This document shows, one piece after another, positions 27,334 to 48,698 of a stretch of 64,000 nucleotides of DNA (position 1 is its first letter; every line of letters begins with the position of its first letter). Source of the stretch: Stieleria varia (GTDB lineage Bacteria > Planctomycetota > Planctomycetia > Pirellulales > Pirellulaceae); contig NZ_CP151726.1 in NCBI RefSeq assembly GCF_038443385.1, forward strand, positions 2,666,001-2,730,000. Reading direction: 5' to 3'. The position numbers and the translations under genes are program-made. The notes beneath the pieces are model-generated. The model worked only from the letters and a program-made list of their open reading frames with translations, had not been told where the DNA came from and did not search any database.

Positions 27334-27948
27334 TTATTGCGGTTTCTTCCCCTTATTGCGGTTTTCGCCCTTTTTCTCGTCAACCTCCTTCCCCATTTCT
27401 CGTTCTTCCGCATTTCTCGTTTGGCCGTAGGTCCATCCGGTCGCGTTATGGGAGAACGGGAAGGCACTCATCAGATACTTATGAATGTAGAATCCCTTCA
27501 TTCCGACAGACTGTAATACATCGGCGAAAATCGGCTTTGCAGCCGTGCTACTTGGCGGAATTTCGTTGTCGACAATGAAGGAGTCGCCCACAGAAAAAAA
27601 CACCGGTTCCTCTCCGTCGCGAATTATTGTGAATAAGAATCTTGTTTCCAAATGCTTGCGTGGTTCTTTTATAGAGCTCAATTCCATTACTAAACGATTA
27701 AGATATTGCCTAAACTGATCTCGAGATAAATTTAGTTCTCCGGAAAATCGAGAACTGCACTGAAGTTTCCAAGCAACTATTCCGGATTCATCGCATTGAA
27801 TCATTAACGATTCTAAGGTGGTTGCATTGTTCGGCTCGTTTGCAATTGACGACAACAGGAGGATATCTAGACTCCCTGTCGGCTCTACTGCCGAACTGAC
27901 GGAACACAACATGACACACCAGAAGAACGATAAAGCAGCGACTCTCAT
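27334..27948 (-). CDS. Secreted partner protein 1 of displaced RHS tip 1 (3' end altered)
   Basis: 204 residues from ATG 27948, four bases after the stop of RHS tip 1. A signal peptide is clear (MRVAALSFFWCVMLCSVSSAVE). The mature part has alternating helices and strands, with no recognised domain. The last 30 residues (from about TRNAEERE) are highly charged and encoded by three direct TTCCCCTTATTGCGG repeats, so the native C-terminus has probably been replaced by repeat DNA. By position it may be the immunity or accessory partner of the tip; this is inference only. The gene is clearly richer in A+T than the housekeeping genes around the island. Confidence 0.6.
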   Translation of the reverse strand: MRVAALSFFWCVMLCSVSSAVEPTGSLDILLLSSIANEPNNATTLESLMIQCDESGIVAWKLQCSSRFSGELNLSRDQFRQYLNRLVMELSSIKEPRKHLETRFLFTIIRDGEEPVFFSVGDSFIVDNEIPPSSTAAKPIFADVLQSVGMKGFYIHKYLMSAFPFSHNATGWTYGQTRNAEEREMGKEVDEKKGENRNKGKKPQ

Positions 27949-28416
27949 ATGCTTACCATACAGGAAAAGGCACAACATGTTCCCACTCAATACCGTCATA
28001 ATACGCTTCTTCCTGTCCATCTTTCGGTGGCTTGTACGGTCCAATGCCACCAGCTGGCAAATTGCCCATGTGGACGAAGTCATTGTTAAGAAAGCCATCA
28101 TCCAGCGTAACGCTACATTTCCCTTCACCCTCTTCATCACCGACAGTTATGACAAGGTAAGCGTGAATTTTTACTTCCTTCATTTTCTTCTTTTCCCAGG
28201 GAAATGAATACCCACCCTCTTGTATGACGCCCACTCGCGCTGAAAAGCAACTTGAGTCGACACGATCAAATGCAGACTTAAATAGATCGGCCCAGTTGTA
28301 GCAGTACCACCCTCCAACGGCTTGAGGATGATCAGGATCTCTAGTAAATGGCCCGTATCCGAAATTTGCTTGCCACGCGGATAATGCGGCAAGCGTAATC
28401 CGATTTGCGTCCGCTA

Positions 28417-29665
28417 CAGGGCGATTGCGCCACACTGGGTAATTTGCGAAGATGAGCGAAGATTCGTGTTTGGGTCGCTGAGATGCAGTGGCTGGGCGAA
28501 TCGACTCGCTCAGGATTGGCTTGATGGAACGCTCTGCTTCACTGATTGAAAAACTTAATACCGTTTCCGATCCACGACCGGGCGAGCCGATTTATCCGCT
28601 TGTCAATATTCTCTTTATGACGATCTGTGCGGTGATCGCTGGTGCGGATGATTTCGTTGCGATCGCTAAGTTTGCCAACACAAAGAAAGAATGGTTCTCC
28701 AAGTTCCTGGATATGACCGCAGGAGTTCCATCGCACGATCGTTTCAACGCCATCCTCAATGCGGTCAAACCTGAAGAGTTTGAACCGATGCTGCTCGAAT
28801 GGATCACTCAGCTTCACAAGATCACCGATGGCCAAGTCATTGCGATCGACGGCAAGACTCTTCGCAGAAGCTACGACACTGCGACCGGCAAAGCTGCCAT
28901 CCACATGGTCAGTGCATGGGCGACGGCTAACCACATCAGCCTTGGACAAACGGTGGTCGATGCGAAGAGCAACGAGATCACAGCGATTCCTAAATTGCTG
29001 GAAATCATCGACGTTTCCGGAGGTTTGGTAACGATTGATGCAATGGGCTGCCAAACAGAGATCGCTGCAAAGATCGTTGACGAAGGTGCGGACTATTGCT
29101 TGGCAGTGAAAGGGAACCAACCGACACTTCACGAGGGAATCAAGGCCTTCTTCTTGGATCATCTTGAGGATGACTTTGCCCGAATCGAGGTGTTTGAACA
29201 TCACACGAAGGAGACCGATCACGGACGTGTGGATGAGCGTAGCTACTACTTGTGCAAGGTTCCCAGCGATCTTCCAGACGCCAGTCGTTGGAAAAATCTC
29301 AGTGCCATCGGTATGTCGATCAACAACACGGAACGTCGAAAGGGCGACGAGATCGCAGTGCGTTATTACATACTCAGCAAAACACTTGAAGGAGAATCGT
29401 TTGCCTGTGCTGTGCGTAACCACTGGGGCATCGAGAACAGCTGTCATTGGCAGTTGGACGTGACGTTTGGCGAAGACCAATGTCGCATTCGCAAAGGTCA
29501 TGGTGACGAGAACTTCAGCACGCTTAGACGGACGGCCTTAAGCTTGCTCAAGCAAGAGAAAACTGCGAAGTGTGGAGTCAAGAACAGGCGGCTCACCGCC
29601 GGGTGGGACGATGACTACATGGAAAAGGTCGTTTTCAGTCGGTAAATCGCCGTGCAATCGCCCTG
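28417..29665. mobile_element. ISAs1-family insertion sequence (complete, 1249 bp)
   Basis: Terminal inverted repeats CAGGGCGATTGC (from 28417) and GCAATCGCCCTG (to 29665). The direct repeat GCGTCCGCTA flanks it at 28407-28416 and 29666-29675, a 10-bp target duplication within the range known for ISAs1. One intact transposase gene. It interrupts RHS tip 1. Confidence 0.93.
28524..29645 (+). CDS. ISAs1-family DDE transposase
   Basis: 373 residues from ATG 28524 with AGGA nine bases upstream; ATG-less extension to 28488 is possible but lies close to the IS end. The N-terminal DDE_Tnp_1-associated domain contains NILFMTICAVIAGADDF. Catalytic segments: VIAIDGKTLRRS (first Asp), GLVTIDAMGCQ (second Asp), and the region HWQLDVTFGEDQCRIRKGHGDEN that carries the last acidic residue. 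All motifs are intact and the gene is full length, so the element may be active. Confidence 0.93.
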   Translation: MERSASLIEKLNTVSDPRPGEPIYPLVNILFMTICAVIAGADDFVAIAKFANTKKEWFSKFLDMTAGVPSHDRFNAILNAVKPEEFEPMLLEWITQLHKITDGQVIAIDGKTLRRSYDTATGKAAIHMVSAWATANHISLGQTVVDAKSNEITAIPKLLEIIDVSGGLVTIDAMGCQTEIAAKIVDEGADYCLAVKGNQPTLHEGIKAFFLDHLEDDFARIEVFEHHTKETDHGRVDERSYYLCKVPSDLPDASRWKNLSAIGMSINNTERRKGDEIAVRYYILSKTLEGESFACAVRNHWGIENSCHWQLDVTFGEDQCRIRKGHGDENFSTLRRTALSLLKQEKTAKCGVKNRRLTAGWDDDYMEKVVFSR

Positions 29666-30072
29666 GCGTCCGCTACACAATCCGCAGCCTTGCATTCACA
29701 CTCATCTCGACATTTCTGGCATCGCGCTGCCAGAAAGGCCGACAACTCACGAATGCCGCTTAGTCCTGCAAGATATTTTGGATCGTATGGTGTATTCGGA
29801 CAAGGCACTGCCTTAGGACCGTTAGGACTATCGATTTGGCAGTCTCCAGTATCCAACTTGTTGATGATGTTCCCGTTGGAATCTATACCGACAATCGTGT
29901 TCCCAAAGGGATCCGTTGATTTTAAACCGAAGTAACTGCTCAAGAGTGAGGTTCCATCGACGTACCCAATTGGATCTCTGGAGCAAGACTCCACTTGAGT
30001 GACTGCGTTGAAGATGCAGCGGCGTTTGAGGCGGTGGGGCGTTGGTAAGACGTGATTTCGCACGGGCTGATG

Positions 30073-30144
30073 GCAACGACGACTTCCCCCGCGCGCGTGG
30101 ACGCGGGTGACGGGTTGGCGGCGGGGGATTTTTGTCGTCGTTGC
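30073..30144. repeat. Long hairpin between recombinase gene and RHS tip 1
   Basis: Outer arms GCAACGACGAC (30073-30083) and GTCGTCGTTGC (30134-30144), inner arms TCCCCCGC (30085-30092) and GCGGGGGA (30121-30128). The same structure occurs at 36754-36826. It lies just downstream of the recombinase stop. It could be a rho-independent terminator or a recombination or replication-end structure; both are inference. Confidence 0.8.
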
Positions 30145-30180
30145 ATGACGCTCATCGTATGGCATCCAACTGCGATGCGG

Positions 30181-31126
30181 TTAGTCTTCTTTTAGCTCGG
30201 CCGGGTGCGTTTTGTCGTGGATTTCCTGCAACCTGCGGATCGACGTTCTGGCGTAGATCTGCGTCGTGTCGCTCTTGGCGTGTCCCAGGATCTGCTGGAT
30301 CAACGTCAAGTCCGCGCCGTTCTCGTGCATCAGTGTCGCCATGGTGTGACGGTAGATGTGACACGCTCCCGGCTTGTCGATGCCAGCGGCTTGGATGTAG
30401 CGGCGACCGTACTCCGTGATCGTGTCCGGCTCGAACTCCGTTCCGTGGATCGTTAGGAATAGCGTGTTGTCGCTCTCGGGGGTTGAGAACTGGTCGCGGA
30501 CGCCTTCGACATAGCGGGCGATCCAGAGCAACGCTCTGGTGCCGATCGGGATGTAGCGGTCCTTTTGGCCTTTGCCCCGATCGATGAACAACGCCCGACG
30601 CTCCACATGGATCTCGTCCAGACGCAACGCACAGAGTTCAGAGCGACGGATGCCGGTCGAGTAGAACGTCTCCAAGATCGCTCGATCTCGCAGACCGATC
30701 GGTGTCCGCGTGTCTGGTCCGGCGAGTACCTGCTCGACTTCGTCAGCCGTCAGGATCGCTTTGGGAAGCGTCTTGGGTTGCCGGGGGAGTTCCAAGTCGG
30801 CGGCGGGACTGAACGCGATGTGGTTCATCTTGGCGAGCCAGGCGAAGTACGTTCGTATTTCTTTGAGCGCAAGATGCTGACTGCCCCAGCTCAACGGCTG
30901 GCCGTTGGATTTGCGGTACCGGTACAGGTGACGTTGGTAGCTTTCCAAGATCGGCTTGGTGATGTGGATCGCGCACGTCAGGTTGCGGTCTTGGCACCAG
31001 ATCGCGAAGCCGCGAACGTAGGTGATTCGCTTCTTGATCGTCGCTTCGCTGTAGTTGCGAATGCGAAGCCGATCGGTGTGCTCGACCAACAGGCGATAGA
31101 AGCCGCGTGGATCGTTGGTGTCACCG
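30181..31126 (-). pseudogene. Tyrosine recombinase, 5'-truncated copy
   Basis: Identical in almost every residue to the complete recombinase at 36863-37843 but lacks the first 12-13 codons and the upstream region; the break at 31126 abuts CCCCCTTCCCC. The catalytic set is still present: Arg in TGIRRSELCAL, Lys in RGKGQKDRYIP, HIYRH (HxxR), LGH and the nucleophile Tyr in TQIYAR. A TTG at 31089 could restart translation, so it might still be made, but the normal start is lost. It directly precedes RHS tip 1. Confidence 0.85.
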
Positions 31127-31163
31127 GGACACTAAGAACCCCCTTCCCCTCTCCGGAGACTTA

Positions 31164-32042
31164 TCAAGAGTCCCTGTCGCGCAGTCGCTTCTGAAGGTCT
31201 GACATTCGCTTCGTAAGTGCATCGATGCCTTGCGGAAGCAGGTCCCCATCACCAGTGGGGGCCTCTCCCAAGAGTTGCTCGAGAAGCTGGATTTGGCCTG
31301 CTAATTTGCCTTCCTCACGCCCTTCCTCACGGGCACCTGAAATGGCCCACTCATAGTCTCTTTGAGCCTTTTCGCGTTGATCGTACATTTGCTTGTCTTC
31401 CGTTTTAGCGGAGATGGTTTCTATCGTGGAAATTGCTGGCTCAAACTCGATCCCGGGGAGCAATCGGCGGAGAGCTTCCCCGTCGTAATCCTGGGCGTGT
31501 AGCAACAGGAATACCCATTGATTCAGTTTACTCGCCCTGGAGATCGTCTGCTCTGCCAAGGCATACTTCGTCAATTCTACCGTGTGTACTTCGATCCCGT
31601 TGGAAATTGAACGACCGCTCCGTTGGTCCAGGAACTGAAAACGGTGGTAAGCTTGGGTGGTTTGGGAGAAAAGAACGCGGCTGAGCAGACAAATTGAGAT
31701 CGAGGGCGCGGCCAGGGCGTAGTTTCCGCCTTTGGACAGTTGGTCGACGTACATGCTACAGGCATAGTAAACCAGTCGCTCGATCAGGCCTGCATAGACC
31801 GATACTTGCATCTCCACATTGAGCATGCGACCGGCCGAATCGCGGCATCGAACATCGAGCACGATCAGTTTGCTTTCGGCAAACTCTTGGTAGCTGAAAG
31901 GATTTAGAATCTCGACGGAAACGATCGGTCGGTCGAGATCGAGGATGGCATTGAGCAACCCGATCAACGCAGCAGAGTTTTGTGGAGAACCAAAGATTTT
32001 TTTGAAGGCAAAATCAACGGTCGGTCGAATTCCGAGCGGCAT
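31164..32042 (-). CDS. Rpn-family PD-(D/E)XK nuclease/transposase-like protein
   Basis: 292 residues from ATG 32042, with GGAAG eight bases upstream. The N-terminus IRPTVDFAFKKIFGSPQNS is the usual Rpn opening. The nuclease core has K-LIVLDVRCRDSAGRMLNVEMQV, giving the Asp and the ExQ-type acidic residue of the PD-(D/E)XK fold. It ends in a charged coiled coil (AREEGREEGKLAGQ) typical of the family. Rpn proteins promote RecA-independent recombination in E. coli. It lies between the truncated recombinase and IS91 copy B in the same orientation as the RHS tips. Cytoplasmic. All core motifs look intact. Confidence 0.85.
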   Translation of the reverse strand: MPLGIRPTVDFAFKKIFGSPQNSAALIGLLNAILDLDRPIVSVEILNPFSYQEFAESKLIVLDVRCRDSAGRMLNVEMQVSVYAGLIERLVYYACSMYVDQLSKGGNYALAAPSISICLLSRVLFSQTTQAYHRFQFLDQRSGRSISNGIEVHTVELTKYALAEQTISRASKLNQWVFLLLHAQDYDGEALRRLLPGIEFEPAISTIETISAKTEDKQMYDQREKAQRDYEWAISGAREEGREEGKLAGQIQLLEQLLGEAPTGDGDLLPQGIDALTKRMSDLQKRLRDRDS

Positions 32043-32369
32043 AGATGGCTTCCAAGCATAGGCACAACGGACGAACACAAACTTCATGTTACACAAATCA
32101 GAGCCATGGAGAGGGAGACATCGCGGCCACTAGGCCGGTTCACTGCCGGCACCTTGGGACGCGGCCAAGTCCTGGTTTGCCTGCGGCGTGTTTCCCGCTA
32201 CCGGTGTTGCTTTTGGAATCCTCGGTCGGCTAACACGCAACCGTGGCGACGTCGCACCAGTCGGCTTAGACAACTGATGACCTGTCATCAGCCGAAAAAG
32301 ACGTGGGGCAGGTTTTTAACCTGCCGAGCTGAAGGGAAACCTAGCAGGTTAAAAACCTGCCCCACGGAG
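32043..32369. other. Short gap with a perfect 21-bp inverted repeat
   Basis: No gene. Two perfect 21-bp arms (32304-32324 and 32344-32364) built on GGGGCAGGTTTTTAACCTGC surround a 19-base loop. It resembles a REP element and could act as a terminator. The right edge abuts the truncated left end of IS91 copy B. Confidence 0.75.
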
Positions 32370-33635: not shown

Positions 33636-34166
33636 CTACTCCTCTTCTCCATTCTGGTTGGAAGAATCCAATCCAAGGACTCTCGAGTTGATGGATCGAC
33701 TGAACACGAGTGATATCTGCGAATTCTCTAATTGCTCTAACTTCAAACGCTCGGGGACACGCCGATCTACTCGCCATGGCCCGAGCGCACGACGAAGCGG
33801 AAGGAGTAAAGGAAACGCCTCCACCCCGCGTTCAAGTATTACATCATGTGAATCTAAAATTACGCCCTTGATCTGGGGCTTTACTCGGACCACTACATTC
33901 TCCGTTAACTTGAAATTCTTGGGAAAATGCACGACACATAAAATCCACGGATCGTCCGAAATTCCAAGGCCTTGCGGAAAATCAACCAAGCTTGCGTTGA
34001 CTTTCGAGTGCTTGATTACATCCTCAAGAACAGTCGGAAGATCAATAGAACTAACTGACACTGCTACCTGTTTACTAGGTGTTGCGAACTGCTTTGTCTC
34101 AGCAAGGCTAGTGAAGCAGTTTAAGCTCAGGCAGATACCAATCAAAACGAAAGTTTTCTTACACAT
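33636..34166 (-). CDS. Secreted partner protein 2 of displaced RHS tip 2
   Basis: 176 residues. Start ATG 34166 overlaps the TAA of RHS tip 2 by one base (TAATG), so translation is coupled to the tip. Clear signal peptide (MCKKTFVLIGICLSLNCFTSLAE). Mature region: short beta-rich segments (VVVRVKPQIKGVILDSHDVIL) and a charged C-terminus ending GEEE. No family recognised. Position immediately after a polymorphic tip suggests an immunity or accessory role, but an exported immunity protein would protect an extracytoplasmic target; unproven. Low G+C compared with flanking housekeeping genes. Confidence 0.7.
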   Translation of the reverse strand: MCKKTFVLIGICLSLNCFTSLAETKQFATPSKQVAVSVSSIDLPTVLEDVIKHSKVNASLVDFPQGLGISDDPWILCVVHFPKNFKLTENVVVRVKPQIKGVILDSHDVILERGVEAFPLLLPLRRALGPWRVDRRVPERLKLEQLENSQISLVFSRSINSRVLGLDSSNQNGEEE

Positions 34167-34501
34167 TAAAGCGATATTTCTGCTAAAGACCCATCGAGGT
34201 TCAACGTTAAAGTTGTCGTTCCATTGAAGCTAAAAAAGTTCTCCCACACTCGATGACCAATGTCCGGATCGCATTTGCTAACAACCGCCTGTTGAAATCG
34301 CATTTCCATATCTACACGAATAACCACGGGACCTTGCATTCCTCCCGCAACGGCTCGTGCCAGATCAGATAGATTTACTCCTGGCTTATCCAACATAGAA
34401 TATCTGCAGCCATCGGTTGAGAATTTACTTTTGGTATGTTTATCCGGATCGTCCCATTGCAAATCTTTCTTTCCGTAGCAGACAGTTCTTCCATTTCTTT
34501 C

Positions 34502-36225
34502 GAGTGTGACCGGCAACCCGCCGGTTAACATGCCATGGTAAGCGGAGTGTAGTGGCAGACCATGTTACGGTTTGGATGGGTGCTCTCGCTCAACTCCGTG
34601 ACTCGCTGTTTGCAGAATTTATCCCAGTAGTCACTCTGAAATACCGCCCGCACGTTGAGCATGCTCCGTGCAGCTTCCAGCGTCCAACGCATCCCGCTTC
34701 GTTCCATGCGGTCCTTTACCAAGTGCCCGCACGCGCCTTCGATCACACCCGAGGCAATCGGGTAGCCTGCAGCAAGATATTCGTCGTAACGCATCCGATC
34801 CTTGTGTTTCTCGAAGTAACCACAGATGCGTCGAAGGTCTTTGAGTTTATCGCCCTTGAGTTTCCCAAGCGAACCCATTCGACGTAGCCCTCGGATCACC
34901 CCGTTGACCTCACCACGCAGGATTTTCAGCAATCGCTCCCGCGTAAACGCTGCTCGCTTTTCGCTGGATTTCTCGAACAATGACGAAGCCTCCCACACGT
35001 AAGTCGCTACGTGAATGATGTCCAAGATTGGCACCACTAATGGATCGTCGCCTAAGTGTAACTGCGCGACTTCCCAGAGGCTCTGCTGACCGTCCATTAA
35101 CAGAATGATCACTTGGAGTTTCTTTCGGCGGACACTGACTTGATCTGCGAGCCATGCGATCCCCTCGTGGATACCGCTGATGGGAACCTCCGTATCGTCG
35201 TCCACGAAGGTCGCGGGAAAGTGAGCCGATGTATGCTTGTGCTTTGGCCGCGGTCGTTTCTTTTTGCTCTTGCGTGATTGCGTGCCGGGTTCTTTGTCAT
35301 CACGGAACAAGGCAGCGACAATTTGCTCGGCTGTGCGAACATAGGGATCGACGGTGTAAGCACTCGTGACCGTTGCCATGCGACGGTTTCCGGGCCGTTT
35401 CTTTGCTGTCTCAAAAGCAGCCACTTTGGCGGCATCGTCTTTGATCAAGGGAACGCCCTTGCAGTCGGCCGAAGCGACGAGAAGCTCGGCTTCATCCTTC
35501 TTTTTGGGCGTCGGCAAGTCGTCCAGAAAGGCATCGGCCTGGACCCCCATTCTCTGGCTGGTCTGTTCGAGCGTGTCGATCGAGAATTTCGCTCCGAAAA
35601 CGAGTTCGAGATTATCAGCGGCCTGGTTGAATGCGGATTCGACGCAGAACATTTGGGAGAACTCTTGGAGCAGGTACGACCAGCGGTGCTCCGGCAGTTG
35701 CATGCGGGCGCTGATCGGATGCAGTTCGATTCTCTTGTTCTTTCCCGGGCTGTAGGTGTACTGTTGAAAGGCGTGTTCACCGAAAATCGACCGAACCACC
35801 GTGTCGGTCGGTTTCTCGCTGCGTCGCAGTGTTTTGCCTGATTCGCTGACCGCTTGATCACCAAGGTCCCCCTTGCCTTGGAGTTTGGTGAAGAGCTCCA
35901 TCGCCAGAAAGCCGGTTTTCAAGACAAGATTCCACACGGCACGCTCGGTTTCATCGAAAGACTGGCCGCATTTAGAAGCATTGACGACGTGTTCTCGGAT
36001 GGTGTCGCCGCACTGCTGCAGTTTCTCGGCGATTTGCTCGGGCGACTGCGGAAAAGAAGACGAAGTGGGGTTGTCAATATCGCTTGAATGTTCGACGCTC
36101 ATTTCAGCGGCCTCCTGCCTTTGATACCTGGAAGTTAGAACCCAAATCATGGCAGGTTGGCCGCTTTTTGTTTACCCAGATTCCGCAATGCTCCGCAGAA
36201 GCCCCGCGGGTTGCCGGTCACACTC
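34502..36225. mobile_element. ISKra4-family insertion sequence (complete, 1724 bp)
   Basis: Terminal inverted repeats GAGTGTGACCGGCAACCCGC at 34502-34521 and its complement at 36206-36225, 20 of 20 matching. Flanked by the 9-bp direct repeat ATTTCTTTC (34493-34501 and 36226-36234). One full-length transposase gene. It interrupts RHS tip 2. Confidence 0.93.
34525..36102 (-). CDS. ISKra4-family transposase
   Basis: 525 residues from ATG 36102, preceded by a perfect AGGAGG nine bases upstream; an upstream ATG at 36150 would add 16 residues. The first 120 residues are helical. An acidic residue in LLVASADCKG (about 232), IILLMDGQQSLW (about 356) and the C-terminal signature GYPIASGVIEGACGHLVKDRMERSGMRW identify the ISKra4 family and supply DDE candidates. 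Full length, no frameshift, so possibly active. Confidence 0.9.
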   Translation of the reverse strand: MSVEHSSDIDNPTSSSFPQSPEQIAEKLQQCGDTIREHVVNASKCGQSFDETERAVWNLVLKTGFLAMELFTKLQGKGDLGDQAVSESGKTLRRSEKPTDTVVRSIFGEHAFQQYTYSPGKNKRIELHPISARMQLPEHRWSYLLQEFSQMFCVESAFNQAADNLELVFGAKFSIDTLEQTSQRMGVQADAFLDDLPTPKKKDEAELLVASADCKGVPLIKDDAAKVAAFETAKKRPGNRRMATVTSAYTVDPYVRTAEQIVAALFRDDKEPGTQSRKSKKKRPRPKHKHTSAHFPATFVDDDTEVPISGIHEGIAWLADQVSVRRKKLQVIILLMDGQQSLWEVAQLHLGDDPLVVPILDIIHVATYVWEASSLFEKSSEKRAAFTRERLLKILRGEVNGVIRGLRRMGSLGKLKGDKLKDLRRICGYFEKHKDRMRYDEYLAAGYPIASGVIEGACGHLVKDRMERSGMRWTLEAARSMLNVRAVFQSDYWDKFCKQRVTELSESTHPNRNMVCHYTPLTMAC

Positions 36226-36652
36226 ATTTCTTTCAGTACAGTCTTCTACGTAAATTGGCATCCCGCGATCATTGTTCCCCTCTCCAAGATACTCGATGTG
36301 TTCTCGACCTGTCGCGTCAGTATAGGTAACCCGAGTTTTCTCAGAAACCCATTGAACGAACTGACAACAACGGCAACTATGTCCTCCTTCGTCGACGAAC
36401 TTTAAATCCAAGCCAAATTCACTCGTAAACCACCAATCACTTTTTGGCTGTAGAGGCGGTGCACCAGGAAGCGCAAACGGATTATCTGGTGGCGGGGTAA
36501 TTTCTCTTTCAAGAATTGGCGTGCCGGGTGGATTGAAGGAAATGTCAGCGATCAAACAAACGCTTGGGCACAGTCCGAGTTGATCAACTTTGGTGAGAGG
36601 GCTGCCATCCGTATAGTGATAATACTTGGAACTTAATAACGCATTGGCAATC

Positions 36653-37808
36653 GGATCTCTGGAGCAAGACTCCACTTGAGTGACTGCGTTGAAGGTGCAG
36701 CGGCGTTTGAGGCGGTGGGGCGTTGGTAAGACGTGATTTCGCACGGGCTGATGGCAACGACGACTTCCCCCGCGCGTGTGGACGCGGGTGACGGGTTGGC
36801 GGCGGGGGATTTTTTGTCGTCGTTGCATGACGCTCATTGTATGGCATCCAACTGCGATGCGGTTAGTCTTCTTTTAGCTCGGCCGGGTGCGTTTTGTCGT
36901 GGATTTCCTGCAACCTGCGGATCGACGTGCGGGCGTAGATCTGCGTCGTGTCGCTCTTGGCGTGTCCCAGGATCTGCTGGATCAGCGTCAAGTCCGCGCC
37001 GTTCTCGTGCATCAGTGTCGCCATGGTGTGACGGTAGATGTGACACGCTCCCGGCTTGTCGATGCCAGCGGCTTGGATGTAGCGGCGACCGTACTCCGTG
37101 ATCGTGTCCGGCTCGAACTCCGTGCCGTGGATCGTCAGGAATAGCGTGTTGTCGCTCTCGGGGGTTGAGAACTTGTCGCGGACGCCGTCGACATAGCGGG
37201 CGATCCAGAGCAACGCTCTGGTTCCGATCGGGATGTAGCGGTCCTTTTGGCCTTTGCCCCGATCGATGAACAACGCCCGACGCTCCACATGGATCTCGTC
37301 CAAACGTAACGCACAGAGTTCTGAGCGACGGATGCCGGTCGAGTAAAACGTTTCCAAGATTGCTCGATCTCGCAGACCGATCGGTGTCCGCGTGTCTGGT
37401 CCGGCGAGCACCTGCTCGACTTCGTCGGCCGTCAGGATCGCTTTGGGGAGCGTCTTGGGTTGCCGGGGGAGTTCCAAGTCGGCGGCGGGACTGAACGCGA
37501 TGTGGTTCAGCTTGGCGAGCCAGGCGAAGTACGTTCGTATTTCTTTGAGCGCAAGATGCTGACTGCCCCAACTCAACGGCTGGCCGTTGGATTTACGGTA
37601 CCGGTACAGGTGACGTTGGTAGCTTTCCAAGATCGGCTTGGTGATGTGGATCGCGCACGTCAGGTCGCGGTCGTGGCACCAGATCGCAAAGCCGCGAACG
37701 TAGGTGATTCGCTTCTTGATCGTCGCTTCGCTGTAGTTGCGAATGCGAAGCCGATCGGTGTGCTCGACCAACAGGCGATAGAAGCCACGTGGATCGTTGG
37801 TGTCACCG
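36653..37808. repeat. Direct repeat copy 2: recombinase module
   Basis: Partner of 29972-31126, about 1156 bp, nearly identical. It begins at GGATCTCTGGAGCA (36653-36666). It contains the hairpin (36754-36826) and the recombinase gene, and ends at TCACCG (37808), beyond which only this copy keeps the native gene start. Confidence 0.9.
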
Positions 37809-37843
37809 AACGCTTTGACGGCAGTGGGTTTGGACTTGGACAT
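36863..37843 (-). CDS. Tyrosine recombinase/integrase (complete copy)
   Basis: 326 residues from ATG 37843, with GGAG seven bases upstream. An N-terminal SAM-like DNA-binding domain (RNYSEATIKKRITYVRGFAIWC..., to about 115) precedes the catalytic domain. Conserved residues: Arg in YSTGIRRSELCAL, Lys in RGKGQKDRYIP, HxxR in CHIYRHTMATLM, His in ILGHAKSDTT and nucleophile Tyr in QIYARTS. It looks closer to XerC/D and integron-type recombinases than to phage integrases. It follows the primase-helicase gene by 258 bp in the same orientation and precedes RHS tip 2. A role in moving or inverting the adjoining module is inferred. Confidence 0.9.
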   Translation of the reverse strand: MSKSKPTAVKAFGDTNDPRGFYRLLVEHTDRLRIRNYSEATIKKRITYVRGFAIWCHDRDLTCAIHITKPILESYQRHLYRYRKSNGQPLSWGSQHLALKEIRTYFAWLAKLNHIAFSPAADLELPRQPKTLPKAILTADEVEQVLAGPDTRTPIGLRDRAILETFYSTGIRRSELCALRLDEIHVERRALFIDRGKGQKDRYIPIGTRALLWIARYVDGVRDKFSTPESDNTLFLTIHGTEFEPDTITEYGRRYIQAAGIDKPGACHIYRHTMATLMHENGADLTLIQQILGHAKSDTTQIYARTSIRRLQEIHDKTHPAELKED

Positions 37844-38101
37844 GAGAGTCTCCAGGGTTGTGTCCGCGCGCACCGTGAGCCCGGACGATTTTCAAAGAGA
37901 GAGTTCGCTTGAGCCAGAGGGGATCAAGCGAGAGTGGCAGGACTGCCACTACGTACGACGATGCTCGTACGTTTTTTTGCGGTGGGGGTGGGACACTCTC
38001 GGTGATTCCGAGAGGTTGCGCAGCAAGCTGTAACCAGACAACAACTTACGGTTGCTCACGCGGCCCGAAAGCTGGCCGAAAGCGATCCGAAAGGTTGCGA
38101 A
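37844..38101. other. Gap with phased CCGAAAG repeats and a short hairpin
   Basis: CCGAAAG occurs at 38065, 38076 and 38087 (11 bp apart) and again at 38107 inside the end of the primase gene. Helical phasing suggests a protein-binding or iteron-like site; inference. A GTACGACGATGCTCGTAC hairpin lies at about 37953-37970 next to a T-run and may terminate the upstream transcript. Confidence 0.5.
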
Positions 38102-40435
38102 TTAACCCGAAAGGTCGGTCGTCGTAGGTGCGGTCCTGGTTGGTTCTTGCAGGGACGCGGCATCGACCAAGCCGATCAACGCTGCCTGCCCCTCGCGACC
38201 CCGGCCATCGTAAAGAACGCTGTAACGACACAGCTTGCCGTTGTCGCCTCCTTGACGGACCACGTATTCGTCCCGGCACAGACGTTCCAGATGATAGTTC
38301 AATTGCGTGGCACTCCAGCCCAATGCCTCGCGTGCTTCTCGACGATTGAACACAATCTCGGTCGGTTCTAGCTCGCAGGTTTTCGATCGGTCGTAGAGCC
38401 AATCGTAAAGCTCGATGAGCAGCCGACGCGTTGGACCGGAAAGCTCGTCGATGCTTCGCCCTAACGCCCAGTCGGCGATCGTGTTGGCTTTGGCGATGTC
38501 TTCCCGGGTCACTTCAATGTACTGGATCGATTCGCCCTCGATCTCGATTGTTTTCGTCTCGTGTTGGAACTGATACAGCAACGCGACCGCTTTGATCAGC
38601 GAAAGATATTTTCTATGGTCACGTCGATGACGGGCTTGGGTGCCGATGAAGCCGAGTTGTTCTGCGTATGGATTGTAGACCGGAAGGCGACGAAGAAGAC
38701 GCTGTGCGTTTTGATGATTCTTGACGATCTCTTTGCCTTGCATCTCTTGAATGAAACCGTCGACCGTTTCGGCAAAACGCTGTTGCTGAAGAATCGCAGC
38801 GGTTTGTGCAACGCTTTCATCGATCGCGATCACCAGACAACGATTCAACAGTTCGGGATCAACGTTCATTGACGTCGTCGTCATGATCAGAGCCACCGGG
38901 CCTTCGACTTCGTAACGCTCTGTCGCCGTTCTGCCGCTACCGGCCTCTTTGCTCGTTGAAATCAGTGACAATCGGCCTTCACTTTGCAACAGCTTGAGCT
39001 GGTAACTGGCATCTCGGACGCCTTCTTCTTCGGCGACGGAGAGAATCTTGTGCTTGAGACTCTCTTTGCCGAAATAGTACAGGCTTTGACTGGTCATCGC
39101 CGAACAGGTGAAGCGGGATTCGGGGGGCATAAACCGCAGGATCGAATCAGACAAGGCACTCTTGCCGGCTGCTGACGACGATTGAATGATGAGTCCAAGC
39201 GGCTTGTCGAGAAGCCGACTGGTTGCCGCAAGGTAGCCGGCAAGTTTTCCAGCATGCTCACCGACGATGCCGCAGGTTTCAAAGTCGTCCAAGATGCGAT
39301 CGAGCAACTTGGGCGACTGCAGCAAGTCCATCGCCTCGCTTCGCTCTGTGTCGGTCATTTCGTACGGCGGAGGCTCGTTGGACTTCGTTCCGGCGTCGGC
39401 CTGGAGCTGATCAAGCTTCAGCAGGATGCGGCCTATGTCACCGCGCAGCGTGTTCTCGTCGATCGCGATCTCTTCGCCGCATTCTTTCAAGAACACGCGA
39501 CGGGAACGCGCGTGGCACAAGTCCAGCGTGTCGACGTGGAACTGATCGTTGCGGTCATTGAACACCATCAAGTTGATCTTCATCGTGCCGGGCGTTGTGT
39601 TGCGCTGCAAGCCGCGGACACGGTAACGCCGGTGCTCGATGCGGATGGTGATCTCGTTGTCACTTTGAGCGATGTCCAGATCGTCGACCGGATTTGGTGT
39701 TGGTGATGCGACGGGTTGCTGGACCACAGCGTGCTGCGTTGGCTTGCCGCTGACCCAGGTGGCTGCACGGATGCGTGATGCCAGTGGATCGGTTTCGTTG
39801 AGGTGGGCTTTGGCGTACGCGTTGACACTGTCGTGACCGGGGAAGGCGATTTGTAGGATTTCCAGATCGGTGAAGTGTTCCAGGTTGATCTCGGGCGACG
39901 CGATCAGGAGTCGCTTGATCCCTTTGAAATACTCGTCGTTGAGCTGCTCCGCAACGACAGCGTTGCGGTGACCGGCGGCACAGAACGTCCAGGCGTCGAG
40001 GATGCAGCCGCACACGATCAGTTCATCGAACGTTGTCAGCGCCGCCGCGTTGAAGATTCCCGTGCCGATGGTGTTTTCCATCTCGTCTCCTTGGCTACGA
40101 TCGACGCGACGACCGTGGATACCGGTGATCTTGCCAGCAGTGTCGGTCAGTGGCACCGTGACGAACCCGCGAAAGGTTTCATGGCCGGTGGATTTAAGGA
40201 CGCCGACGCTTTGCAGCATCTCGCGAAGATCGCGTCCCGCTTTGGAGCGATGGGGCGGCAGGAGCTTGCCGAACGTGCGATCGCTGAAGCCGATGTGGAG
40301 ATCGTCGCAGTGCAACGCGTTGGCTTGCAGGTGCTCAAGGACTTTCGGGTTGTCCGATAATCGTGACGCGTAGTAGTCGGCGATGAATGCGATCGGGTCG
40401 TCGTGGATCGCGGCGTGGAGTTCGTGATCGTTCAT
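38102..40435 (-). CDS. Primase-helicase-like protein (degenerate TOPRIM plus P-loop ATPase)
   Basis: 777 residues from ATG 40435; an in-frame ATG at 40510 is possible. The N-terminal part resembles DnaG-type primases (LHIGFSDRTFGKLLP, FRGFVTVPLTDTAGKITGIHGRR). Its TOPRIM-like segment reads ELIVCGCILDAWTF, in which the usual catalytic Glu of EGxxDA is replaced. No CHC2 zinc finger is obvious. A P-loop ATPase follows (about residue 420): IIQSSSAAGKS (Walker A), ILSVAEEEG (Walker B), LIMTTTS (sensor) and LLNRCL (Arg finger). The last 90 residues form a winged helix (REALGWSATQLNYHLERL). The gene precedes the recombinase in the same direction; together they look like the core of an integrating, self-replicating element. 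Confidence 0.7.
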   Translation of the reverse strand: MNDHELHAAIHDDPIAFIADYYASRLSDNPKVLEHLQANALHCDDLHIGFSDRTFGKLLPPHRSKAGRDLREMLQSVGVLKSTGHETFRGFVTVPLTDTAGKITGIHGRRVDRSQGDEMENTIGTGIFNAAALTTFDELIVCGCILDAWTFCAAGHRNAVVAEQLNDEYFKGIKRLLIASPEINLEHFTDLEILQIAFPGHDSVNAYAKAHLNETDPLASRIRAATWVSGKPTQHAVVQQPVASPTPNPVDDLDIAQSDNEITIRIEHRRYRVRGLQRNTTPGTMKINLMVFNDRNDQFHVDTLDLCHARSRRVFLKECGEEIAIDENTLRGDIGRILLKLDQLQADAGTKSNEPPPYEMTDTERSEAMDLLQSPKLLDRILDDFETCGIVGEHAGKLAGYLAATSRLLDKPLGLIIQSSSAAGKSALSDSILRFMPPESRFTCSAMTSQSLYYFGKESLKHKILSVAEEEGVRDASYQLKLLQSEGRLSLISTSKEAGSGRTATERYEVEGPVALIMTTTSMNVDPELLNRCLVIAIDESVAQTAAILQQQRFAETVDGFIQEMQGKEIVKNHQNAQRLLRRLPVYNPYAEQLGFIGTQARHRRDHRKYLSLIKAVALLYQFQHETKTIEIEGESIQYIEVTREDIAKANTIADWALGRSIDELSGPTRRLLIELYDWLYDRSKTCELEPTEIVFNRREAREALGWSATQLNYHLERLCRDEYVVRQGGDNGKLCRYSVLYDGRGREGQAALIGLVDAASLQEPTRTAPTTTDLSG

Positions 40436-40789
40436 GGCAAGTGAGACTCCGTTGGGTGCGCGCATAGCGGGAGCGCGGTTGGTGTTGGATGACTTTTTGG
40501 CGCTCCACATTCGGCAGCGTTTCGAAGATGGTCAGCGTTTGCGGGCGTCGAGCGATGAGGTGATGGAAGCGTCCACTGACCGATCAGCCGAATATGGATC
40601 GCCAAGCGGTGCTGATGATAGAGGGGCGTTGGCGATTTCTGTAAAAAGTTTTCGATTGGGTGTTAAGCTGTGCGGGCAAGCGTTCGTCGTAGGTACGTGT
40701 GATGTAGGTACGATGATGCGAATGGGAACGTATAACGATCGTTGTTGGAGTCTAGCGTTCACGCGATTGAGTGTTGGTGTACCGGCTTC
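40436..40789. other. Upstream region of the primase gene
   Basis: About 350 bp without a supported gene. Contains a near-direct repeat GTAGGTACG at about 40688 and 40703 and the sequence GTTGGAGTCTAG (40744-40755), related in inverted form to GACTCCAAC at 42331. It probably holds the promoter of the primase gene; no clear boxes assigned. Confidence 0.4.
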
Positions 40790-42374: not shown

Positions 42375-44015
42375 TTGTTGTCATCCAACGGGCATCACTG
42401 GTTCTCGCCGGCCGTCAGCAAACGATCTGACTCTTCGGCGTGTTCCACTGGCTGTGTCGCGACGAGCGAAGACCTTTTAAGGAAAAAGGATCGAGATGGA
42501 CAATTGATCGTGCTTGATCGAAAGGCAGCGAATCGACAACGTGAGACTGCCGCAAGACGGCTGTCCATCGCGAAAGTCATCGCTGAATACGGTGGCGACG
42601 TTGATTACCGCGATGGTCTGCCGAGGCGTGCCGGTGACCGCACCGCCAAAGTGATGAGCCTGATCCCCAAGTGCCGCACCGGTGCCCTGGGTGGATGCAC
42701 TTGGCAATGCCGTGATTGTGACTCAAGCCAATTGGTCCTCAAATCCTGTGGCGACCGGCACTGCCCGACCTGCTCGGCGTCCAGTCGCTATCGCTGGCAC
42801 GAGCAGCTGCTCTCCTGGGCGATCGGATGTGACTACTTGCACCAAGTCGTCACCGTGCCGCATGAACTCAACGATCTGATCGCCGCCAACCCGGATCAAC
42901 TGTTGCGGTTACTGGCAAGCGCGTCCCGCGAAGCCAATTTGAAACTGTTTTGTGATCGCTACCGATGCATGCCCGGTCTGGTCCAAGTCATCCATACGTG
43001 GGGACAACGACTGAATCATCACTTTCATGTCCACACCGTGTTGACCGGCGGCGGCCTGTCCGTCAATGAAAAAGGCAAGGTCGATGCATCCTCCGCCCAG
43101 TGGGTCGATGTCGACTTGGACGACGCGGAGACTCGCACCGAAGAGCTGGCAGCGGGTTTCAAAACGCTGTTCTTGAAAGGGCTTCGAGGGCAATGGGAAA
43201 AAGGAGAATTGCGATTGCCGATAAACCTGGCGGACGAGTCGGCTTTGCAGTCCGTTTTGACAACGGTGCAAAACAAAGACTGGATCGCTGACATCCAGGG
43301 GACACCGCCCGAGTATCGTGGGCAGAGTGAGAATCAACACGTCTTCGGCTACTTGGCCAAGTACGTGGCGGGGGTGGCGATCGGTGATAGGCGATTGATC
43401 CGCGTCAACGATGATGAGGTGGTGTTCGACGCGAAGGACTATCGCGACCAGTCGCGTGTGGAAGTATCGATGCCGCCAAAAGAGTTCTGCTACGCGTTCT
43501 CCAGACACATTCTGCCGCATGGAATGCCACGCACCCGCTACGCAGGCTGCTTCGCCCCCAACGTACGTAAAAAGTACCTGGAGTTGTGCCGCACGCTGTG
43601 GAAGCAATCGCATCCCGAGTCGGACGACCCTTTGGAAGCGGAATCGCAATCGCCTTTGGAAGAATCAACAACCAAAGAACCTCACGACTATCGCTGCAAG
43701 AAGTGCAACGGCTTGGTCGACCCGGCCGGCCAGTTGGAAGGATCACTAACGGTCTCGCTGTTGGCGGTCGCCCACTGGGTGGTGAAATGGCAGCAGACGC
43801 AAGCCGCATCGACTCAGGTTGTTCCCCATTGGCGACGGGCACTGGCTGCGGTGATCGGACAGCGGATATCGATGCCAAGCAAGAACGCATTCATCAATGG
43901 CATGCGATCTGGACTGATTCGTCCTGATGCTCATTGGTTGAGCTTGATCGAACAGGCGATCGAATTGGTGAGCGAAGAAGTAGAGTGGCCCGATGGCACC
44001 GTGAGACCTCCATGA
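42375..44015 (+). CDS. IS91-family transposase (full length, HUH Y2)
   Basis: 546 residues if TTG 42375 is used; an internal GTG at 42510 would give a product about 45 residues shorter. N-terminal zinc finger: CRTGALGGCTWQCRDC and SCGDRHCPTC (about 97-130). HUH motif HHFHVHTVLTGGG at about 214-219. Paired tyrosines in YLAKYVAGVAI (about 325-330). A second Cys pair, YRCKKC, lies near residue 440. The family moves by rolling-circle transposition, nicking at the right end and inserting next to GAAC or CAAG. The stop overlaps the accessory ORF start (ATGA). Confidence 0.93.
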   Translation: MLSSNGHHWFSPAVSKRSDSSACSTGCVATSEDLLRKKDRDGQLIVLDRKAANRQRETAARRLSIAKVIAEYGGDVDYRDGLPRRAGDRTAKVMSLIPKCRTGALGGCTWQCRDCDSSQLVLKSCGDRHCPTCSASSRYRWHEQLLSWAIGCDYLHQVVTVPHELNDLIAANPDQLLRLLASASREANLKLFCDRYRCMPGLVQVIHTWGQRLNHHFHVHTVLTGGGLSVNEKGKVDASSAQWVDVDLDDAETRTEELAAGFKTLFLKGLRGQWEKGELRLPINLADESALQSVLTTVQNKDWIADIQGTPPEYRGQSENQHVFGYLAKYVAGVAIGDRRLIRVNDDEVVFDAKDYRDQSRVEVSMPPKEFCYAFSRHILPHGMPRTRYAGCFAPNVRKKYLELCRTLWKQSHPESDDPLEAESQSPLEESTTKEPHDYRCKKCNGLVDPAGQLEGSLTVSLLAVAHWVVKWQQTQAASTQVVPHWRRALAAVIGQRISMPSKNAFINGMRSGLIRPDAHWLSLIEQAIELVSEEVEWPDGTVRPP

Positions 44016-44982: not shown

Positions 44983-46076
44983 CGTCCCGCGAAGCCAATT
45001 TGAAACTGTTTTGTGATCGCTACCGATGCATGCCCGGTCTGGTGCAAGTCATCCATACGTGGGGACAACGACTGAATCATCACTTTCATGTCCACACCGT
45101 GTTGACCGGCGGCGGCCTGTCCGTCAATGAAAAAGGCAAGGTCGATGCATCCTCCACCCAGTGGGTCGATGTCGACTTGGACGACGCGGAGACCCGCACC
45201 GAAGAGTTAGCAGCGGATTTCAAAACGCTGTTCTTAAAAGGGCTGCGAGGGCAATGGGAAAAAGGAGAATTGCGATTGCCGATAAACCTGGCGGACGAGT
45301 CGGCTTTGCAGTCCGTTTTGGCAATCGTGCAAAACAAAGACTGGATCGCCGACATCCAAGGCACACCGCCTGAGTATCGTGGGCAGAGTGAGAATCAACA
45401 CGTCTTCGGCTACCTGGCCAAGTACGTGGCGGGGGTGGCGATTGGTGACGGGCGATTGATCCGTGTCAACGATGATGAGGTGGTGTTCGACGCGAAGGAC
45501 TACCGCGACCAGTCGCGTGTGGAAGTATCGATGCCGCCAAAAGAGTTCTGCTACGCGTTCTCCAGACACATACTGCCGCATGGAATGCCACGCACCCGCT
45601 ACGCGGGCTGCTTCGCCCCCAACGTGCGTAAAAAATACTTGGAGTTGTGCCGCACGCTGTGGAAGCAATCGCATCCCGAATTCGAAGACCCTTTGGAAGC
45701 GGATTCGCAATCGCCTTTGGAAGAATCAACAACCAAGGAACCTCACGACTATCGCTGTAAGAAGTGCAACGGCTTGGTCGACCCGTCCGGCCAGTTGGAA
45801 GGATCACTAACGGTCTCGCTGTTGGCGGTCGCCTACTGGGTAGTGACATGGCAGCAAACGCAAGCCGCATCGACTCAGGTTGTTCCGCATTGGCGACGGG
45901 CACTGGCTGCGGTGATCGGGCAGCGGATATCGATGCCAAGCAAGAACGCATTCATCAATGGCATGCGATCTGGACTGATTCAGCCTGATGCTCATTGGTT
46001 GAGCTTGATCGAACAGGCGATCGAATTGGTGAGCGAAGAAGTAGAGTGGCCCGAAGCAAGCGCGAGACCACCGTGA
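44983..46076 (+). pseudogene. IS91 transposase, N-terminally truncated (copy E)
   Basis: About 363 codons, including the HUH motif HHFHVHTVLTGGG and the paired-Tyr motif YLAKYVAGVAI, but without the zinc-finger N-terminus. A TTG at 45000 could start a 358-residue product retaining the catalytic motifs. Loss of the finger probably impairs DNA binding. Very similar to copies A and B. Confidence 0.85.
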
Positions 46077-46324
46077 CATCGAGTTCAAATTATCAATCTC
46101 GTCGTCCCGCACCCATTGGTTTTCAAACACAAACCGACCAAGTTCATCAATCGTCTGTGCAATCGCATCACGATGAATTTGGCACAAAACATCAAGTTCA
46201 ACCGCCAAGGCGCGACCGTTTCGAGTCACTCAAAGTGATTGCATCGCCTGCAATCGAACCAACCAAGAGCAAGACACCGCGTTGCTTACCCAAGTCACAC
46301 CGGGCAACCTCGGCAATCAGCTAA
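46073..46324 (+). CDS. Small IS91 accessory ORF (copy E)
   Basis: 83 codons from GTG 46073, overlapping the transposase TGA. Closest to copy B in sequence (HHDEFGTKH). Unknown function. Confidence 0.5.
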   Translation: MTSSSNYQSRRPAPIGFQTQTDQVHQSSVQSHHDEFGTKHQVQPPRRDRFESLKVIASPAIEPTKSKTPRCLPKSHRATSAIS

Positions 46325-46528
46325 ACCAGCAAAATCTAGCTGGCAGCGTCCCAAAGAAAGAAACCCTCACTCAACGTCTGCGCGCTCGCAGGAGGGTTCG
46401 GGATTTAAGAAGTGAACGTTTTGTAGCCTGCTACTGACTCGATTCAACCCCCGTCCCGTTTTCTTTCCTCGGGAACTGCTGCCGTTTTCTTTCCCTTCTT
46501 CCGAGAACGCGAATCGCGCAAATCATTA

Positions 46529-46921
46529 TCAGCGTTGGGTGGCATCAATCGAGCTTTCAGCAGGCTCCAAATGTGCTACAAGATCCTCAAAGCTATCCAT
46601 GATGCAATAATCTCCGGCTGTGTCATCGTAGAGAATACGCAAGCCATAAACCTCGATTTTTCTTGCCAGCGAATCTCCTGCGTGAAAATCAATATAGTAG
46701 TCTGGAATGCTAGGTGGCACACCGCTGCCTTTCTTCCAGACACTATTAGTCAAATGCGTGACAATCAGCTGTTCTTCCTTGGTCGACAATGCCAGTTCAA
46801 TTCCAAGTGAATCGAAAACCTTAACGTGAGCTGGTTTCGTGAAAGCTATCGGATGCCGTTGGTCAGCACATCCAGAAGACATGACTACCAGCAACCACGG
46901 CCCCACAATGAAATAAGTCAT
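46529..46921 (-). CDS. Small lipoprotein, partner 3 of the RHS core gene
   Basis: 130 residues from ATG 46921, 19 bp after the RHS stop. Hydrophobic signal with lipobox VVMSSGC (Cys at about residue 18). The mature part is mixed helix and strand (VFDSLGIELALSTKEEQLIVTHL, YYIDFHAGDSLARKIEVYGLRI). No family recognised. It occupies the same position as the exported partner proteins after tips 1 and 2, so it is a candidate immunity or accessory protein. Low G+C. ACCCCCGTCCCGTTTTCTT (46447-46465) follows its 3' end. Confidence 0.7.
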   Translation of the reverse strand: MTYFIVGPWLLVVMSSGCADQRHPIAFTKPAHVKVFDSLGIELALSTKEEQLIVTHLTNSVWKKGSGVPPSIPDYYIDFHAGDSLARKIEVYGLRILYDDTAGDYCIMDSFEDLVAHLEPAESSIDATQR

Positions 46922-46940
46922 TATCTTGCAATACGTCGTA

Positions 46941-48698
46941 TTAGTTTTTGGGAAAAAATTCCGTCCAGCAATCATCACCTGTCGCATCTATAGAACCTTC
47001 GTATGGTGTAAAATCGTGTCCATCATAGGCCAACTTTCGAGTGCATTTTTCACCGCCAACAGCATGAGGATTTCGCATATAGCCCAGGGCTCCCATTACG
47101 CGGCAACCTGTGATATTCGCAACTTCCTGAGCAATCTGCGGCCCCCCTTCTTTACGCGGGCACGCACCACTATTGCATCCATTGATGTAAATCACGCAAT
47201 CGTCGCAAAAACGAATCCGCCTCAACCATCGAACGTCTGTTGGGGGTGCGGGTAAACGAGGGTTTCCAGCTGGGAAGATCCCGAATGGTTCTCCATTATT
47301 CACGGACCCTTGCTGACTAGGGTTACTGTGTCCGTACGTTTCCAGCGTTTTCACGCAATCACATTCTTGTCCAAGATGAGCATTGACTGTTTGTGCAAGA
47401 TCGTCCGCCGTATCAAAATATATGGGAATCAATCCAGTGCTGTCAGCATGCTGCTCAAAAAAGTCGTGGATATCTGTATCATTGTATTGGACTGCAAAGA
47501 CATCGATATGATTGGGTACGCATTCTTCGCAATCATAACCTGAGTACTCCGAGTTGTAATATTCTTCGTATGTAGTCTGCAAACCGTATGCATCCTGTTC
47601 ACTTAAAGCAAAGTACGCTCTGTATACGTTCCATCCATCCACATACCCAATTGGATCTCTGGAGCAAAAGCGACCGACGACCGGGTCGTACATGCGGGCG
47701 CGGTAGTGGTAGATGTCCATCACCTCGTCGTACTCGCGGCCGGTGAAGGTGTAGCGGTTGCCTTCGGCGGTGGACGTGCGTGCCGTGCCGCTTCCGTCAA
47801 AGATCGAGAGCATTCCGTAGGCTGAGTAGGCGTAGCGTTCCTGGATGGTTCCGCTTGCGTCGGTCAGCGCGGTGATGCTGTACTGCTGATTTCGATGGAA
47901 GTAGCGATTACCTGAGCCGCCCGTTCGCATCACCGGCTCGTCGATGTAGCTGGCGTAGAGGTAAGTGTAAGTCGGTGAGGTCGCGGCAGTACCGGAGGTG
48001 TAGTCCGCAATCGTTTGCTGACCGGACTGCACAAAAACCATCGCCGTCGTGCCGTCGTCGCGACCGACTCGGCGACCAAGGGCATCGAACTGGTAAGTGA
48101 TGTCGTCCGTGCTGTCGTTGTCGATGTCGGCTCCGATCAGCTTGTTCTCGAAGTCCCATTTCATCTTCAATGGATCGCTGCCGGGACGAAGCACTGCCGG
48201 GATCTCCGTTTGGTTGCCTTTGGCGTCGTGCTGGACGGCTTGGCTGGCCACGGTCAGGATCTCGTGGGTAGGACCGTGGGTTCGCGACTGTGAACTGCCA
48301 TTCTCTGTGATGCTGTTCCAATCGCCCACCAGAGAGAGATTCCATGACTGATCCAGGTTGGTGTCATCTCTCTCCCAGTTCACCAAGCGATCTTCGTCAT
48401 CATAGCCGCTGGTGCCTACACTGAACCCGTAGCCACTCATCGTGCCGGTGATCGACTCAGACGTCTTGTTCTTGTTGTCGTCCCAGCCATAGGTGTAGTT
48501 CCCTATCGCGGCACCAGAATACGAGATGCTGGCCAAGGTGTTGTCGACGTTGTAGGATCGGGTTTCGCTCACCCCGTTATTGTACACACTGGTGAGCAAC
48601 CTGCCCCCATCATCGTAAGTTCGCGTGTCAATTGTCGTGCTGCCCAAGGCAATCGTGGCCAATTGGCCGCGATCAGTGTAGGTCCGGAAGACATGGTG
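46941..48698 (-). pseudogene. RHS/YD-repeat protein, 5'-truncated, with intact core and tip 3
   Basis: The frame enters at about 48698 next to an orphan transposon end, so the shell-forming N-terminus is lost; a TTG at 48662 would give 573 residues. YD repeats (TRTYDDGGRLLTS, SYSGAAIGNYTYGWDDNKNK) lead to the RHS core: RYTFTGREYDEVMDIYHYRARMYDPVVGRFCSRDPIGYVDG. The tip (about the last 200 residues) has a probable His/Cys dyad: LETYGHSNPSQ and CVIYINGCNSGACP, an arrangement like clan CD (caspase-like) peptidases; inference. Intact RHS proteins are usually far longer (well over 1000 residues) and encapsulate a toxin tip. The lipoprotein gene follows. Confidence 0.8.

Follow-up and report, generated by a model that had tools for sequence, protein, structure and literature searches.

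Exchange of toxin tips has so far been documented, as far as the accessible literature goes, as recombination between homologous cores, and homologous recombination has been described for the rhs genes of Salmonella (Koskiniemi 2014, PMC3967940). In the accessible parts of other reports, new modules were proposed to integrate into cdiA and to push the old module downstream, integrase genes were noted among the orphan modules (Ruhe 2016, PMC4927057), and XerC/D-type recombinases were noted beside polyimmunity loci (Zhang 2012, PMC3482391). Here we analysed 64,000 nucleotides of Stieleria varia (Planctomycetota; contig NZ_CP151726.1 of assembly GCF_038443385.1, positions 2,666,001 to 2,730,000 of the forward strand), hereafter the window, in which a truncated RHS toxin gene and two orphan RHS tips accompany genes for tyrosine recombinases. 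The window very probably contains what is left of integrative elements that reside in polymorphic toxin genes and integrate site-specifically, with the core/tip boundary as their attachment site. Both copies in the window are partly decayed.

All on the reverse strand, the window carries an RHS core fused to tip 1 and a small gene, followed by insertion-sequence debris, a primase-like gene, recombinase A, a leader, and tip 2. Further along the same strand lie a PDDEXK_2 gene, recombinase B, a second leader, and tip 3. The 14-bp sequence TGCTCCAGAGATCC, which contains the codons for CSRDP, was common to the junctions of core and tip 1, leader A and tip 2, and leader B and tip 3. To the left of these 14 bp there is RHS core at one site and leader at the others, and these flanks are unrelated. 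The RHS-associated core domain is cut at the junction, since only its last part (positions 42-72 of the hidden Markov model, HMM) is matched by displaced tips 2 and 3. The two recombinase-plus-leader copies showed 97.5% identity over 1161 bp, and the likeness ended at the tip. An initial annotation, made from the sequence and its open reading frames (ORFs), had described a core with its tip and two orphan tips in the same orientation, each followed by a small gene, and one recombinase-plus-hairpin module in front of both displaced tips. ORFs and domain matches confirmed this layout, and the comparison of copies A and B confirmed the module, although an 802-aa primase-like gene in front of copy A (38102-40510), itself part of the module, had been missed.

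Three further full copies (C, D, and E) were found elsewhere in the genome, with the same junction and each with a different tip. All five full copies of recombinase plus leader run into a CSRDP tip within about 200 bp, which is more than expected by chance because the 9.72-Mb genome has only 12 TIGR03696 places at an E value of 0.01. The initial annotation had proposed to check whether the hairpin segment is followed by a tip starting at SRDP. In this genome, the segment had eight DNA matches, six of which are followed by a CSRDP tip (A-E and H, the last retaining only the final 33 bp of the segment), the exceptions being the degraded copy F, which has no tip, and copy G, a 102-bp fragment. 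Copies B, C, and D have 3.6 kb in common, ending or diverging at the junction, and the PDDEXK_2 gene that adjoins the recombinase 5' end lies within this shared block. An RHS core was found upstream of copy E.

We propose that the unit consists of a toxin tip with its immunity gene, an Xre regulator on the opposite strand where one is seen, a DnaG/toprim primase, the tyrosine recombinase, and the leader. The recombinase would join the circle site, where the leader end meets the start of the element's own tip, to the short conserved sequence where core and tip of an RHS or CdiA gene meet. This would fuse the core to the element's own tip (attL) and leave the previous tip and its immunity gene behind the leader (attR). 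Repeated rounds would build the order core, tip 1, immunity gene 1, element, tip 2, immunity gene 2, element, tip 3, immunity gene 3, as in the window. The tip behind a recombinase is most likely a displaced former tip and not cargo, with the element's own tip joined to the core at the opposite end; the earlier suggestion that each orphan tip is carried with its recombinase would then have to be reversed. Recombinase A has the catalytic motifs R, K, HxxR, H, and Y of tyrosine recombinases of the phage integrase family, and this enzyme presumably catalyses the exchange. The displaced immunity genes may still be protective.

Short direct repeats at both ends of the element, together with an uninterrupted empty site, were found in Escherichia coli when strain C10 was compared with OkiPb01697 and Bongo, in both of which cdiA is uninterrupted. 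The cdiA core of C10 aligned to that of OkiPb01697 up to VENN (96.5%), 7,782 bp were inserted at the VENN codons, and a 12-bp repeat, GTTGAGAATAAC, was present at both ends of the insert. The insert contains a new toxin end (CdiA-CT), an immunity gene, a regulator, a primase, a recombinase, a DinJ/RelE pair, and a leader, behind which the former toxin end and the next 10 kb downstream are collinear with OkiPb01697 (99.7%). The comparison with Bongo gave the same picture, and C11 has the same VENN spacing as C10. The displaced tip and immunity gene were found without the leader in 33 genomes among the matches listed (99.4-99.7%), annotated there as cdiA in 26 and as VENN pre-toxin in 7; the match to the displaced part begins at query base 305, 14 bp ahead of the VENN repeat.

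Among 5426 complete E. coli genomes, 59 contained the element, always in the chromosome and with a median of four places per genome. Of nine E. coli loci, taken from the top of the listings and not at random, six were at RHS genes (L167, L169, L170, L175, L177, L178) and three at cdiA (L168, L173, L176). Varied tips occur on one backbone: strains A20 and R12 are 96.8% alike in the backbone and have a different tip and immunity gene beside the core. Some E. coli orphan tips retain the last bases of the leader without a recombinase (e.g., L171 at 11911 and 14272), as expected of earlier rounds of integration. No conjugation genes, as would characterise an integrative and conjugative element, are annotated inside the E. 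coli and Enterobacter units, the plasmid gene table being incomplete.

Exact tandem units were found in genome G764, where four units follow an RHS gene. Units 1 and 2 form a 6905-bp repeat with 99.96% identity, and GTCCCAAGGGG is common to the unit ends, where core and toxin meet (VPRG). The backbones of units 1-2 and units 3-4 are 86% alike, and their tips have no BLAST match to each other. The junction of leader and tipA reads CTGTTCCCCT-GTCCCA-AGGGGAACAG, with perfect inverted arms around 6 bp; arms of 8/8 were found at 3 of the 38,960 positions of this stretch, this junction among them, with the spacer placed after the sequence had been seen.

RHS or FHA/CdiA-type toxin genes or tips were present in five of six plasmid regions with the primase (Janthinobacterium, Paraburkholderia, Caballeronia, Enterobacter, and Lonsdalea). 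The Enterobacter plasmid has two copies, 7,685 bp apart and identical over the visible 4,840 bp, that start in a CdiA-type gene at VENN. In Lonsdalea populi, a circular record of 11,289 bp is made of two such units whose tips are nucleases (Colicin-DNase/WHH and Endonuclea_NS_2), and it also holds SymE genes, regulators, one recombinase, and a toxin-antitoxin pair. It has two primases, one annotated and one shorter and unannotated, and no other annotated replication gene. Inverted arms of 8/8 flank 6 bp at one of its leader/tip sites, a score reached at 1 of 11,249 positions, the spacer again having been placed after the sequence had been seen. The tandem units and the circular record fit circles that integrate. 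The primase may replicate such circles, and the element may be transferred horizontally between cells. SymE or DinJ/RelE genes also lie beside the regulator or recombinase in enterobacterial units (L164, L166, L167-L178), where they perhaps stabilise the element. On the sixth of these plasmids, from Leptospira noguchii (L165), a related set of regulator, primase, and recombinase adjoins ParA/ParB genes and a large protein for which no Pfam family was found.

The recombinase family extends across phyla. At an E value of 1e-50, the window recombinase had matches in 8 of 392 genomes of its phylum, its own included, and a Granulicella relative in 30 of 396 genomes of its phylum; relatives in Pseudomonadota sit at RHS or CdiA-type genes. 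A scan of genome contigs with a single protein as the query gave 13 loci, six of them close relatives (48-61%). The recombinase tree of 69 rows placed 41 rows in one clade (100/96), comprising 40 units, with L039 and L040 identical. A DnaG/toprim primase lies within 1 kb upstream of the recombinase in 30 of the 40 units. Eight units meet a contig end too soon for the tip test, and 30 of the 32 testable units have an RHS tip no more than 3 kb downstream. The RHS HMM, built from nine seeds of which some were drawn from the surveyed loci, found 24 of these tips (15 within 600 bp and nine at 1.1-2.9 kb); the others were found by the CSRDP motif (copy D), by BLAST (L066), by eye at a contig end (L063), and by identity (three in G764). 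Partial recombinases were excluded from the tree and the count (L068 and L140, with a tip behind; L035, L105, and L109, without). A separate clade of seven related recombinases had no RHS hits in the fetched stretches (0/7; only 738 bp downstream for L113), and a separate two-recombinase group had an RHS hit in four of six loci (L106, L107, L141, and L142, and not L108 or L111). Paired recombinase genes lie side by side in L106, L107, L142, and L066, as a single fused ORF in the last.

CHC2 zinc finger and toprim domains were found in all three full-length primase-like proteins tested, and both unit regulators tested were of the Cro/CI type. PADLOC matched the Granulicella primase to two DRT models through its DnaG part. 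With one primase as the query, two weak Listeria records were found among phages and one locus (L160) among viral contigs. In L062, L063, and L065 (genome G265), an ORF that resembles ECF sigma factors by eye replaces the primase, and the recombinase precedes an RHS tip. L130 and L131 have a similar ORF of 180-196 aa between the recombinase and the displaced tip.

The claim of the initial annotation that tips are switched by a dedicated system, and not by passive homologous recombination, held up: the clade is linked to RHS tips in two phyla and its relatives to RHS/CdiA genes in a third, and to this are added the fixed short crossover sequence, the exact tandem units, and the occupied and empty sites in E. 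coli. If recombination were passive, the orphan tips would be displaced RHS ends as in Salmonella, for which the accessible text of PMC3967940 describes orphan tips as well as recombination across 522 bp of homology, and the proximity of the recombinase would be accidental. Identical tandem units could also arise by amplification through homologous recombination, and in L121 and L130 the homology continues through the usual cut. We nevertheless regard this explanation as improbable, because the best-defined junctions share only about 11-14 bp between unrelated left flanks, the E. coli insert ends in 12-bp repeats, and a tip so regularly follows the recombinase in the testable units of the clade.

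An integron-like system, in which the leader hairpin would be an attC-like folded site and an integrase would move cassettes of tip and immunity gene singly, is very improbable. Here primase and recombinase are themselves part of the units that are repeated in G764 or inserted in E. coli, and the hairpin lies roughly 100 bp away from the crossover, unlike a folded attC. Membership of the integrons was rejected on this distance. What speaks for integrons is the conserved hairpin and L042, where a tyrosine recombinase is followed by tip arrays. The hairpin folds modestly better than shuffled sequences (z -2.31; 5 of 200 shuffles equally good), stands at the same place with different bases in two Stieleria leaders, and keeps its position across seven sequences, where some of the changes are paired (15 of 40 pairs, with a covariation term of only -0.31). 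Capture by IS91-type elements, with the recombinase as an accessory gene brought to RHS tips by one-ended transposition, is extremely improbable, even though IS91-type transposase pieces lie near copies A-E (Y2_Tnp match at 42375-44015 in the window, others by tblastn) and the block common to copies B, C, and D starts near an IS91 end. With the window transposase as the tblastn query, 2 of 64 loci of other genomes matched, both weakly (L037 and L060, 28-36% identity), and loci without a match have primase and recombinase all the same; the Y2 transposase is thus not part of the unit, and membership of the IS91 family was rejected.

Several observations weigh against integration at the core/tip boundary. 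Two of the 32 testable units have no downstream tip (L127 and unit 4 of G764). Of 11 within-locus comparisons in 10 loci, only four (L066, L133, L138, and L140) gave a clean cut on the left side, located at other RHS motifs; L121 and L130 show no cut because the downstream RHS homology runs on leftwards into the core, and the remaining five gave no clear picture. At the window and Stieleria sites, the inverted arms are no more symmetric than background (4/8 and 2/8). Annotations of C10 and C11 mark cdiA as frameshifted, and the Lonsdalea circle may be an artefact of assembly. No RHS core was found in a further 14 and 16 kb upstream of copies C and D, which fits decay. For the order seen in the window, displaced tip C as the query matched its own genome only (196 genomes), so no empty site was found. 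Site-specific integration at the core/tip boundary remains a well-supported mechanism for what is a real element family.

In L138 (oriented -), two displaced tips (10195-11184 and 11945-12382) are stacked with nearly the same leader-coded starting peptide, and the second, which has no recombinase before it, is likely a trace of an earlier round. The leader reads in frame into the displaced tip in several cases, some with starts that resemble signal peptides by eye (L138 and L164); E. coli C10 and R12 have stops in the leader frame.

The features of the window are listed in Table 1.

Table 1 Features of the RHS tip array in the window (positions within the 64,000 nucleotides)
Feature	Position	Strand	Evidence
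RHS core, 5'-truncated, fused to tip 1	46941..48662	-	TIGR03696 E 2.1e-13; ORF
Core/tip junction TGCTCCAGAGATCC, CSRDP codons, attL-like	47653..47666	-	Junction comparison
Putative immunity gene of tip 1	46529..46987	-	Position directly behind tip 1
Primase/toprim-like protein of element A, 802 aa	38102..40510	-	Primase HMM 1350 bits; weak DnaG matches
Tyrosine recombinase A	36863..37873	-	PF00589 E 2e-36
Leader A with hairpin, 196 bp, ending at crossover	36667..36862	-	
attR-like junction of leader A and tip 2, TGCTCCAGAGATCC	36653..36666	-	
Displaced tip 2, first part	36172..36652	-	RHS HMM positions 42-72 only; ORF
Repeated 541-aa ORF inside tip 2, putative insertion sequence	34525..36150	-	Recurs in L118
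Probable rest of tip 2	34166..34531	-	ORF position only
Putative immunity gene of tip 2	33636..34166	-	ORF; signal-peptide-like start judged by eye
PDDEXK_2 (Rpn-like) gene beside recombinase B	31164..32096	-	PF12784 E 2e-44
Tyrosine recombinase B	30181..31089	-	PF00589; 98% identical to recombinase A
Leader B with hairpin	29986..30180	-	
attR-like junction of leader B and tip 3	29972..29985	-	Junction comparison
Displaced tip 3, first part	29635..29971	-	RHS HMM positions 42-72
Transposase-like ORF inside tip 3, presumably ISAs1	28488..29645	+	Identical ORF in L033
Probable rest of tip 3	27953..28435	-	ORF position
Putative immunity gene of tip 3	27334..28140	-	Position; signal-like start judged by eye

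The array of tips described initially is present and is partly decayed, since later insertions interrupt tips 2 and 3; recombinase B, which lies behind the PDDEXK_2 gene, lacks about 21 N-terminal residues. The small proteins behind the tips had been described as exported; their genes were found, and their export signals are signal-peptide-like stretches judged by eye. Pfam gave no match for tips 2 and 3, for the small genes behind the tips, including that of tip 1, or for the 541-aa ORF, and no CHC2 zinc finger was matched in the primase-like protein. Rfam gave no match in the window, and PADLOC none for its primase and recombinase. In L144 (2022-2111), an ORF related to PDDEXK_2 immediately precedes a further RHS tip without a recombinase. 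The window also contains tandem 14-bp repeats (TGGTAGAAGATTAC) at 26030-26119 and tandem repeats with a period of ~34 bp at 3993-4187.

An attachment site at the core/tip boundary would be a direct mechanism for tip swapping and would explain orphan arrays. We consider it rather probable that a widespread, unnamed class of mobile elements swaps RHS and CdiA tips, that VENN, SxDP/DPIG, and VPRG are its DNA attachment sites, and that many orphan arrays are fossils of serial integrations. If the boundary motifs are attachment sites, the reason for their conservation needs rethinking. Tip exchange also becomes testable: in E. coli, the recombinase and the two sites are identified, as are strains with the site empty and occupied. 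No open-access paper was found whose title or opening of the abstract describes this element, most subscription papers lying outside the coverage. Integrative elements and satellites have a tyrosine recombinase, a Cro/CI-type regulator, a primase, and direct-repeat ends, and replace the 3' end of a host gene on integration. In contrast to these, the target here is the boundary between toxin core and tip, and one toxin tip takes the place of another.

The initial annotation knew of no description of such a system. In the literature found, the element is indeed unnamed, but the idea of displacement is already present in Ruhe 2016 (PMC4927057). The displaced or orphan cdiA-CT/cdiI and rhs-CT modules (PMC4927057, PMC3967940) are likewise pairs of tip and immunity gene in tandem behind a core; the accessible text of these papers names neither an agent nor attachment sites, nor a reach to RHS and other phyla. 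The rAID arrays of Bacteroidales (PMC12247911) resemble our loci in that a tyrosine recombinase heads a same-strand array in a toxin/immunity setting. However, orphan immunity genes are what defines rAID, and the accessible text mentions no primase, whereas the unit here is a tip with its immunity gene that inserts inside a toxin gene. Membership of rAID, which would call for a toxin-free array of orphan immunity genes behind the recombinase, was rejected, as toxin tips follow the recombinase here. The CDI (contact-dependent inhibition) genes of Burkholderia thailandensis likewise lie on a mobile element; the title of the report places it in a new class of transposons that harbour CDI genes (PMC6350997). 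Compared with these systems, the displacement idea is not new, and the agent, the sites, and the scope over RHS and CDI genes across phyla appear to be new.

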